Source of the DNA: Sulfitobacter undariae
GTDB taxonomy: Bacteria; Pseudomonadota; Alphaproteobacteria; Rhodobacterales; Rhodobacteraceae
Length of the DNA: 64,000 bases
Direction: 5' to 3'
Assembly: GCF_014196805.1 (NCBI RefSeq)
Contig: NZ_JACIEI010000010.1
Location: forward strand, 47,204 to 111,203
Positions 46,019 through 60,693 of the stretch are shown here, piece by piece; within the stretch, counting starts at the first letter, position 1; every line of letters begins with the position of its first letter. The translations under genes and the position numbers were made by a program. Below the pieces are notes generated by a model, which saw only the letters and a list, made by a program, of their open reading frames with translations, had not been told where the DNA came from and did not search any database.

Positions 46019-46308
46019 GGAAGCTTCCCCAGTGTAAAAAGCGGCCCCAAGCTGGACCGCTTTGTCAAATTCAGTCCCCTATAGTAAGGGTTGTGACGGC
46101 AGGTGCAAGGGACCACACGGTGCTAAGTCTGTGGTGGTGCGGCTTTTTCATTAGGTTTGCACCGATTTGCAGCCATTATTTTGCGGTCTTGATGCAAACG
46201 ATAGCGTTGTTGCGTGGTGATGTGGCGGGCTTTTCGCAACCGCCCCGCCGCCCAAATCGCAATAACAAGACTGTTGCATAGTTATTCAATCTGGGTATGG
46301 ATGTCCCT

Positions 46309-46353
46309 ATGAAAACGCAAAAGACCACTCAATCACGACGACGCCGCAGCTAA
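46309..46353 (+). CDS. Predicted arginine-rich leader peptide upstream of argD
   Basis: A 14-codon frame, MKTQKTTQSRRRRS, with four consecutive arginine codons (CGA CGA CGC CGC) just before its Ser-TAA end, lies 156 bases upstream of argD-argF. GGA about seven bases before the ATG can serve as ribosome site; an in-frame ATG at 46297 would give MDVPMKTQ as the start. The position and the amino-acid run match a leader peptide that senses charged tRNA-Arg for attenuation of arginine biosynthesis. A stem CCTGCA/TGCAGG (46366-46382) follows. No U-run terminator is clear, so the mechanism is open. Confidence 0.6.
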   Translation: MKTQKTTQSRRRRS

Positions 46354-46509
46354 CTGCCGCCTGCGCCTGCATTCTGTGCAGGTTCGTTTCTGAGTATATT
46401 CCGCGTATTCTTTTCCCCAAATTAACTTGACCCGCCGCTTTTCGCATGGCTCTTTGTGCTTTTCGCGGCTTCTTCATTTACCAACAGTTCTCCTGAAAGG
46501 ATGACTTCG
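46354..46509 (+). promoter_or_regulatory. argD leader region with small hairpins
   Basis: Together with the upstream part (46019-46308) this is a 491-base interval without a conventional gene between divergent gcrA and argD. It holds CGCAG (46345-46349) pairing with CTGCG (46361-46365), the CCTGCA/TGCAGG stem (46366-46371, 46377-46382), and two copies of TTTTCGC (around 46439 and 46461). The pairing could alternate with ribosome position on the leader frame, but a strong terminator is not visible. Confidence 0.4.
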
Positions 46510-47685
46510 ATGATCGCTTCTATCCTGCCGACCTATTCCCGCGCCCCTATGACCTTTGTAAAAGGCGAAGGCTCATGGCTGATTGAGGCCGATGGTCGAC
46601 GTTTTCTGGATTTTGGCGCAGGCATTGCGGTGAACGCATTGGGCCATGCCAATCCGGCGTTGGTCGCCGCGCTGACCGAACAGGCAGGTGCATTGTGGCA
46701 CACGTCGAACCTTTATCACATCCCGCAACAGCAAGCGCTGGCGGATAAGCTGGTTGAGCATACTTTCGCAGACACTGTGTTTTTCACCAACTCTGGCACA
46801 GAGGCCTGTGAGTTGGCTGTGAAAATGGCCCGCAAATATTTCTACGATAAAGAGCAACCAGAGCGCGTTGAAATCATCACTTTCTCAGGGTCGTTTCATG
46901 GCCGTTCCGCCGCAGGTATCGCTGCTGCAGGGACCGAGAAGATGACAAAAGGCTTCGGCCCGCTGCTGCCTGGATTTGTGCACGTGGAATTTGGAGATTC
47001 TGAGGCGCTGAGCGCTGCCATCACCGATAAAACCTGCGCTATCATGATTGAGCCGATCCAAGGTGAAGGTGGTATTCGCCCTGTGCCAGACGCGGATTTG
47101 AAAGCCCTGCGCGCGCTATGCGACGAACACGGTATCTTGCTGATTTTCGACGAGGTGCAATGTGGTGTTGGCCGTACAGGTAAACTTTTTGCGCATGAAT
47201 GGGTGGGTGTTACACCTGATGTCATGATGGTCGCCAAAGGCATTGGTGGTGGTTTCCCGCTCGGTGCGGTCCTTGCCACTGAAAACGCTGCCAGCGGTAT
47301 GACAGCAGGTACGCACGGCTCCACCTATGGGGGTAACCCGTTGGGTTGTGCTGTTGGCTGTGCTGTGATGGATGTTGTGACCGATCCTGACTTTCTCGCG
47401 GATGTGAATCGCAAGGCGGGCCTGCTGCGCCAAAAGCTAGAAGGACTTGTCGCGGCGCACCCTAATGTCTTTGAGGCCGTGCGCGGCCAAGGGTTGATGT
47501 TGGGTCTGAAATGCAAAATTGCGCCAATCGATTTCGTCAACGCAGGCTACGCAGCAGAAATTGTTACTGTTCCTGCTGCGGATAACGTTGTGCGTTTGCT
47601 TCCGCCCCTGACCATCACAGACGAAGAAATCTCCGAGGCCGTAACCCGCATGGACCGTGCCGCCACCACTTTGGGCACCGCCTGA
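46510..47685 (+). CDS. argD: Acetylornithine aminotransferase
   Basis: PLP enzyme converting N-acetylglutamate semialdehyde to N2-acetylornithine in arginine synthesis. 391 residues of the class III family. LWHTSNLYHIPQQQALADK, FFTNSGTEACELAVKMARKY, FDEVQCGVGRTGKLFAHE and the PLP lysine block MMVAKGIGGGFPLGA are visible. The ATG at 46510 (MIASILPTYS) has AAAGG at a suitable distance; ATG at 46501 and a start at 46456 are less likely. First gene of argD-argF and preceded by an arginine-rich leader frame. Confidence 0.95.
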   Translation: MIASILPTYSRAPMTFVKGEGSWLIEADGRRFLDFGAGIAVNALGHANPALVAALTEQAGALWHTSNLYHIPQQQALADKLVEHTFADTVFFTNSGTEACELAVKMARKYFYDKEQPERVEIITFSGSFHGRSAAGIAAAGTEKMTKGFGPLLPGFVHVEFGDSEALSAAITDKTCAIMIEPIQGEGGIRPVPDADLKALRALCDEHGILLIFDEVQCGVGRTGKLFAHEWVGVTPDVMMVAKGIGGGFPLGAVLATENAASGMTAGTHGSTYGGNPLGCAVGCAVMDVVTDPDFLADVNRKAGLLRQKLEGLVAAHPNVFEAVRGQGLMLGLKCKIAPIDFVNAGYAAEIVTVPAADNVVRLLPPLTITDEEISEAVTRMDRAATTLGTA

Positions 47686-47757: not shown

Positions 47758-48663
47758 ATGAAAAATTTTCTCGACATTCACCAAACAGCGCAATCCGATT
47801 TGCGCGGCATCATCGATTCTGCCACCGCAATGAAAGACGCGCGCAAAGGCCGGTCTCGCGGGGCGCTTGATGATGATCTGCCGCTCAAAGACCAGATGGT
47901 CGCGTTGATCTTTGAAAAACCCTCGACCCGTACCCGTGTGTCTTTTGATGTTGGTGTGCGCCAGATGGGCGGGCAGACTTTGGTGTTGTCGGGTGCCGAT
48001 ATGCAGCTGGGTCATGGTGAAACCATCGCCGACACGGCCCGCGTTTTGTCACGTTACGTTGATCTGATCATGATCCGCACGTTTGAAGAGCAAACGCTGC
48101 ATGAGATGGCAGAATATGCCACTGTACCAGTGATCAACGGGCTGACAAACCGCACGCACCCGTGTCAGATTATGGCAGACATCATGACGTTTGAGGAACA
48201 CAACGGCCCCATCAAAGGCAAACGCGTGGTTTGGTCAGGTGACGGTAACAACGTTTTTGCCAGCTTCGCCCATGCGGCCAAGCAATTTGATTTTGAACTG
48301 GTGTTCACAGGCCCTGAAACACTTGACCCTGAACAGGCGCTCAATGGCCTCTATACAACCGTGCGTGACCCAAGCGAGGCTGTTAAAGGCGCTGATCTGG
48401 TAGTCACGGATACTTGGGTGTCTATGCATGATCCGCAGTCCGCACGCGAACGTCGCCACAACCAGTTGCGCGGCTATCAGGTGAATGATGCCTTGATGGC
48501 CAAGGCCAAGCCGGATGCGTTGTTCATGCATTGTCTGCCTGCGCACCGCGATGACGAAGTCACAAGCGCTGTGATGGACGGCGCCAATTCTGTCATCTTT
48601 GACGAAGCCGAGAACCGCTTGCATGCCCAAAAGGCAATCATGCGCTGGTGTCTTGAGAAGTAA
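47758..48663 (+). CDS. argF: Ornithine carbamoyltransferase
   Basis: Transfers carbamoyl from carbamoyl phosphate to ornithine, giving citrulline. 301 residues with the carbamoyl-phosphate motif [11 protein letters not shown], the conserved [18 protein letters not shown], and the ornithine-binding [11 protein letters not shown]. The ATG at 47758 (MKNFLDIHQ) has AAAGAA upstream; an open frame to 47719 would precede any conserved sequence. Second gene of the argD operon. Confidence 0.97.
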
Positions 48664-60618: not shown

Positions 60619-60693
60619 GCCCGGGTAGCTCAGGGGTAGAGCAGTGGATTGAAAATCCTCGTGTCGGTGGTTCGATTCCGCCCCTGGGCACCA
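60619..60693 (+). tRNA. tRNA-Phe (anticodon GAA)
   Basis: 75 bases including encoded CCA. Acceptor stem GCCCGGG pairs with CCTGGGC (one G-U), D-arm GTAGCTCAGGGGTAGAGC, anticodon loop TTGAAAA giving GAA, T-arm GGTGG-TTCGATT-CCGCC. The anticodon stem (GTGGA/TCCTC) has a U-U mismatch at its second pair. Accessory genes (alpA and an integrase) lie directly downstream, so its 3' end is the likely attachment site of the element. Confidence 0.97.

Follow-up and report, generated by a model that had tools for sequence, protein, structure and literature searches.

Does the short reading frame ahead of argD and argF in Sulfitobacter undariae act as an arginine-sensing leader, and by what mechanism would it do so? 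We followed up a sequence-only reading that had proposed such a leader peptide in the stretch of S. undariae DNA analyzed here (64,000 nucleotides, hereafter the window), using the corresponding regions of relatives.

The leader ORF upstream of argD

The frame of four Arg codons with a stop 156 nt upstream of argD, described in the sequence-only reading, is present. Its codons (46309–46353) are ATG AAA ACG CAA AAG ACC ACT CAA TCA CGA CGA CGC CGC AGC TAA, with one Ser codon between the Arg run (46336–46347) and the TAA at 46351–46353; the argD ATG lies at 46510 (Table 1). The gene upstream of the leader, divergent to argD, has GcrA as its best NCBIfam match, below that family's cut-off. An Rfam search of the window returned only a tRNA at gathering score and nothing credible near the leader. 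This tRNA gene lies at 60619–60690, and ARAGORN run on the same stretch (L274) gives tRNA-Phe (gaa).

Table 1. Features of the argD–argF locus in window coordinates.
Feature	Coordinates	Strand	Basis
Promoter-like element: -35-like TTGCAT 46274–46279, 16 nt, -10-like TATGGA 46296–46301, 7 nt, ATG 46309	46274..46301	+	Fits 147-relative profile
Leader ORF, MKTQKTTQSRRRRS then stop, predicted leaderless	46309..46353	+	Conserved mini-ORF upstream of argD in relatives
Control codons CGA CGA CGC CGC	46336..46347	+	CGA leads 94/104 runs picked by amino acid only
Hairpin A, across end of Arg run and stop	46345..46365	+	Predicted; small excess over controls
Hairpin B, terminator-like, CCTGCA-TTCTG-TGCAGG, tail TTCGTTTCTGAG	46366..46382	+	Terminator-like consensus scan
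TTGAC, perhaps the -35 of another promoter close to argD	46427..46431	+	128/147 relatives vs 19.5 in shuffles
argD, acetylornithine transaminase	46510..47685	+	NCBIfam NF002325 and TIGR00707 above cut-off
argF, ornithine carbamoyltransferase	47758..48663	+	NCBIfam TIGR00658 above cut-off

We searched upstream of argD in relatives for mini-ORFs that begin with ATG, span 6–45 codons, carry at least three consecutive Arg among the last 12 residues, and end 30–260 nt upstream of argD, with dinucleotide shuffles and the reverse strand as controls. The genome-contig set contains 74 loci (79 minus L061, which has no upstream sequence, and L074, L075, L076, and L078, which are distant). The family set contains 91: from 190 family genomes with argD, 159 of them listed, 90 were read (30 with loci and 60 picked down the ranking), and the class draw contributed one more family genome. 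Mini-ORFs of this kind precede argD in 62 of the 91 family loci, compared with 1.9 in shuffles and 0 on the reverse strand, and in 44 of the 74 genome-contig loci, compared with 1.5 and 1. When four Arg are demanded, the counts are 30/74 and 52/91 (0.2 in the shuffles of each set); when two suffice, they are 68/74 and 85/91 (shuffles 12.3 and 17.8).

The N-terminal part of the leader peptide is free to vary while the Arg codons are kept, as in MIKRAHITQTRRRR, MTQIAAFAAARRRR, MITRTALFARPRRRALRA, and MTKGHPIRRA, each followed by the stop. Under the Arg run the third bases change, and the remaining peptide changes as well. Loss of the run or of its frame in relatives, which the sequence-only reading had named as evidence against its proposal, was absent: relatives retain the run, its frame, the start, and the stop, supporting the leader-peptide attenuation architecture that it had recognized. 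In a curated set of 152 leaders (147 of them non-identical), argD starts a median of 117 nt past the leader stop. In all 152, in a search confined to the last 10 codons, the run lies 0–6 codons from the stop, with 0 codons in 53. Directly 5' of this biosynthetic operon stands a short ORF rich in codons for the end product, as in attenuation-type leaders. From these comparisons it is nearly certain that the arginine-codon leader before argD is a selected, conserved feature.

The leader start had been placed at ATG 46297. This codon is in frame, but it overlaps the -10-like TATGGA, whereas ATG 46309 fits the conserved promoter-to-ATG spacing and is most likely the start. Among the 147 non-identical relatives, T precedes the leader ATG at -36 in 59% and at -35 in 86%, position -12 is A or T in 94%, position -11 is A in 61%, and position -1 is C in 76%. 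The spacing in these relatives is that expected for transcription starting at the A of the ATG, which suggests that the leader mRNA begins at the AUG itself, i.e., that it is leaderless; because the same promoter profile also helped to decide between in-frame ATGs, this fit is partly self-consistent. A strict sigma-70 promoter scan of the window's leader region gave no match.

Codon choice in the Arg run

Because the scoring of the curated leaders favored CGA, we base claims about codons on 104 distinct leaders chosen by amino acid alone. Their 401 run codons are CGA 189, CGC 184, CGT 21, AGG 4, and CGG 3, and the first codon of the run is CGA in 94 of the 104. Arg codons outside the run in the same leaders (n = 107) include CGA 9 times and CGG 18 times, and the argD coding regions of 63 loci use CGA for 73 and CGG for 283 of 1127 Arg codons. 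Comparison of run with argD codons gives Fisher p-values of 5e-68 (CGA) and 2e-37 (CGG), which are overstated, the sequences being related. At the second run codon, the 152 curated leaders have CGC 74, CGA 51, CGT 26, and CGG 1.

The S. undariae genome yielded 38 tRNA matches, of which 32 were typed; the six untyped matches span 81–88 nt. The tRNA-Arg anticodons among the 32 are ACG, CCG, CCT, and TCT, and a TCG anticodon was not found among these typed matches. Inosine-modified ACG tRNA reads CGU, CGC, and CGA, and CCG tRNA reads CGG; the leader therefore seems adjusted to a single tRNA and to one of its slow codons. We infer from these gene and codon counts that a single tRNA, tRNA-Arg(ACG) carrying I34, reads almost every control codon. 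In the Salmonella his leader, the accessible text of PMC4046918 links Arg-Arg pairs with CGA to high de-attenuation. The case for CGA being needed is weakened because, in the accessible text of PMC6386406, rare and frequent Arg codons of speF orf34 sensed arginine alike.

CGA pairs before argC and in the murI tail

We scanned arginine genes for CGA-CGN pairs no more than 14 codons away from a stop that itself lies at most 220 nt upstream of the gene. Such a pair precedes argD in 84 of 91 loci, compared with 7.8 in shuffles and 11 on the reverse strand. Counts were at background for argG (2/24; shuffles 2.6, reverse strand 0), argB (2/24; shuffles 2.0, reverse strand 6), argH (1/24; shuffles 0.8, reverse strand 1), argS (1/23; shuffles 2.6), and carA (0/24; shuffles 1.2), and marginal for argJ (8/24; shuffles 3.4, reverse strand 4). 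Outside the family, we read 67 of the 96 class genomes with a match. An RRR leader occurred in 2 of the 67 (shuffles 1.5) and a CGA pair in 9 (shuffles 4.0, reverse strand 9), both near background.

Three MAGs labelled Rhodospirillales (L070–L072, within the 74-locus set) have a frame ending in RRR and a stop, with CGACGACGATAG, before argD. Separately, L185, a class genome outside the family, has a possible arginine leader at this place.

Upstream of argC, the pair was found before a stop in 14 of 23 loci (shuffles 2.6, reverse strand 1; L229, below cut-off, was left out), mostly within the C-terminal FLRR of murI, encoding glutamate racemase (TIGR00067 is the best NCBIfam match, slightly below cut-off). 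Other murI tails in this set read CGA-CGT (L211) and CGA-CGC (L222), and outside the last 15 residues only 7 of 248 murI Arg codons are CGA. We then scored murI loci (L396–L445; own-genome locus G000:C3:249014-250897). Of 75 matching genomes we took the best 30 and added 20 selected by hand, some of these for an argC already known to be located away from murI; at the time of selection, the tail codons of most were not yet known. The 36 script-scored loci in which murI adjoins argC have CGA-CGA in 24, CGG-CGC in 3, CGC-CGC in 2, and no Arg-Arg found in 7, whereas the 13 in which the genes lie apart have CGA-CGA in 0, another Arg-Arg in 10, and none in 3. Among script-scored Arg-Arg tails, CGA-CGA thus accounts for 24/29 adjoining argC and 0/10 apart (Fisher 4.7e-6). 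Two adjoining loci were read by hand: L406, which the script had left unscored, has CGA-CGA, and L424, where it had overlooked the Arg-Arg, has CGC-AGA. With these the counts are 25/31 and 0/10. A tree of 29 murI proteins requires five changes to place the five murI that do not adjoin argC, three of them forced by well-supported branches.

A free mini-ORF with CGA CGA stands before argC in 4 of the 17 loci whose murI tail is without CGA-CGA. Checked by eye, these encode MIRAPRR (L402), MTQRPARSLRRHS (L410), MTAPRLRR (L413), and MAPAPFQVLRRQ (L426), each up to its stop. The other 13 of the 17 have no such mini-ORF, and the putative argC sensor would for this reason be common, not universal. Six loci with the murI tail pair have no separate mini-ORF before argC. 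Most surprising among these observations is the murI tail as a candidate sensor for argC. We lean, by a little, toward a regulator-free arginine regulon in Rhodobacteraceae that would depend on a single codon and a single tRNA, CGA read by tRNA-Arg(ICG); argD–argF would have the sensor in a leaderless mini-ORF, and argC would have it in the murI tail, lost when murI and argC separate and replaceable by a mini-ORF.

From the leader stop to argD

The two small stems that had been placed 3' of the Arg run are both predicted. Hairpin A was considered as a conserved pairing of the Arg codons and rejected: at least four pairs across the stop occur in 117 of 147 relatives and in 538 of 735 shuffles, with a mean z of -0.70. 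Native sequences fold 1.4 kcal/mol better than swapped ones (p 1.8e-4), and best-stem scores (p 0.005–0.05 vs swapped, 0.02–0.36 vs shuffled) show a small effect. Farther downstream, 109 of 147 relatives have a strong hairpin (score at least 14) in the interval from leader stop to TTGAC, compared with 33.8 in shuffles. The hairpin downstream of the leader starts a median of 14 nt past the stop and its arms are variable. The eight positions that follow are G-poor across the 147 relatives, each 65–83% pyrimidine with T at 26–37%. An intrinsic terminator with a U-run was not found across these relatives, in which the tail is C/U-rich, and the window's own hairpin is borderline: a terminator-like consensus scan accepts hairpin B, whose T-rich tail is interrupted (1 hit vs 0.6 in shuffles). 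The earlier statement that there is no clear U-run terminator is accordingly reasonable, if slightly understated for this genome.

Pairing of the post-stop segment with the 5' arm and loop of hairpin B was no better than in shuffled (p 0.58) or swapped (p 0.64) sequences at the 95 of 147 usable loci, and a textbook antiterminator switch is for this reason unsupported. The doubt that the sequence-only reading had expressed about the textbook mechanism was well placed, since the hairpin recurs without a U-rich tail and antiterminator pairing was not detected.

Control of argD–argF by arginine is likely. We consider it probable, with some confidence, that the mini-ORF at 46309–46353 is an arginine-sensing leader on which ribosomes slowed at CGA would relieve premature termination. 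When charged tRNA-Arg is short, ribosomes would slow at the CGA codons of the leader; a slowed ribosome would relieve termination before argD, and expression of argD–argF would rise. The termination step would probably be assisted by Rho, which we prefer among several mechanisms given a C-rich tail that lacks a U-run and the failure to detect an antiterminator.

The same reasoning does not extend readily to argC. Its CGA pair lies 60–195 nt upstream of the start codon (24 loci), a distance in which, by our reckoning, a terminator would often hardly fit, and one mechanism for argD and argC is therefore unsupported. Control of translation, in which a ribosome on the leader would alter access to the ribosome-binding site of argD (or argC) as in S. 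aureus rbfL, would suit argC, as little as 60 nt from the pair, and the leaderless-looking start and stop-side control codons resemble mycobacterial polycysteine ORFs as the accessible text of PMC9031893 presents them. Yet argD starts a median of 117 nt past the leader stop in the curated set, and pairing of the murI CGA region with the argC start gave no signal (p 0.33 and 0.73), leaving this explanation unlikely, if still to be reckoned with. The argC start often falls in a short predicted hairpin, GGTC...ATGACC, beside the ribosome-binding site (L404, L408, L409, L421, and others).

Classical attenuation, in which hairpin B would terminate intrinsically and ribosome stalling would shift the RNA to an antiterminator fold, is doubtful to a slightly greater degree. 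It accounts for a hairpin with variable arms at a recurring place and for the window's tail passing the terminator scan, but the low T content of the relatives' tails and the undetected antiterminator complementarity argue against it, as does the Rhodobacterales cysS leader, reported in the accessible text of PMC8632094 to end in a U-run. It is very improbable that CGACG is a nucleotide motif (a protein or sRNA site) rather than a codon signal, as the near-constant first codon and the mostly exact CGACGA of murI tails might suggest, because CGACG keeps to the reading frame set by ATG and stop, the sixth base differs among leaders (second codon CGC, CGA, CGT, or CGG), the flanks change, and CGA-CGT and CGA-CGC murI tails exist. 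Action in trans of the terminated leader RNA or Arg-rich peptide, of the kind described for S. meliloti rnTrpL and peTrpL, has an alphaproteobacterial precedent in a leaderless attenuator whose RNA and peptide have additional functions (PMC10117765, accessible text) but seems just as improbable, given a peptide highly variable outside the Arg run and an argC pair that can lie in the murI tail instead.

The TTGAC element, usually 54–70 nt upstream of argD in relatives and 83 nt in the window, counts against the leader explanation in that it could drive argD independently of the leader. It may mark a second promoter, perhaps combined with an operator. In relatives, GGCACC lies 16 nt after TTGAC, and GGGCTT then stands directly 5' of argD. 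Together, TTGAC and GGCACC could also represent a sigma-54 site or an operator.

Vitreschak 2004 reportedly treats attenuation in proteobacteria, and Canestrari 2020 is said to cover the leaderless polycysteine ORFs of mycobacteria. The published systems below are compared as the accessible portions of their papers describe them. The cysS leader uORFC-8-2 comes from the same bacterial order, Rhodobacterales, and likewise places a short ORF with tandem control codons ahead of a gene that matches their amino acid; it differs in its Cys codons, tRNA synthetase gene, and reported U-run terminator (PMC8632094), the tandem codons here being Arg upstream of argD rather than Cys upstream of cysS. The name argD is absent from the accessible main text of that study. 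Polycysteine leaders of cys operons, with control codons near the stop, were predicted in 2005 (PMC1262725). Mycobacterial polycysteine ORFs are leaderless, as is predicted for the argD leader, and share with it clustered control codons, no clear terminator, and pyrimidine motifs in the spacer; PMC9031893 reports that they control the translation of genes downstream. They differ in sensing cysteine and in belonging to Actinobacteria. Salmonella speF orf34 resembles our proposal in sensing arginine through tandem Arg codons of an upstream ORF with involvement of Rho, but it controls ornithine decarboxylase, and its sensing codons are 12–13 of 34, not beside the stop (PMC6386406). In S. aureus rbfL, rare Arg codons of an upstream ORF likewise sense arginine via one tRNA; these are AGA/AGG, and a paused ribosome prevents translation of a biofilm regulator, a response opposite in sign (PMC13009471). 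S. meliloti trpL, also from Alphaproteobacteria, is a leaderless ORF with a 14-aa leader peptide, but it concerns tryptophan and an established attenuator RNA (PMC10117765). No arginine-codon leader for argD, argF, or argC was found in the literature searched, in which most subscription papers were outside reach. Arginine-codon upstream ORFs are known already (speF, rbfL), in that literature not for arginine biosynthesis.

According to the accessible text of PMC5343134, many groups of Gammaproteobacteria have a conserved ArgR, which other classes lack. With Alphaproteobacteria reported there to be without ArgR, the leader is a concrete, recurrent candidate for the tuning of arginine synthesis. 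If the argC proposal is true, the tail of the murI protein doubles as the argC leader, and synonymous codons at a gene's end that track the identity of the next gene would represent codon choice selected to regulate a neighbor. Such a sensor would also warn that leaders hidden in gene tails escape searches for small ORFs.
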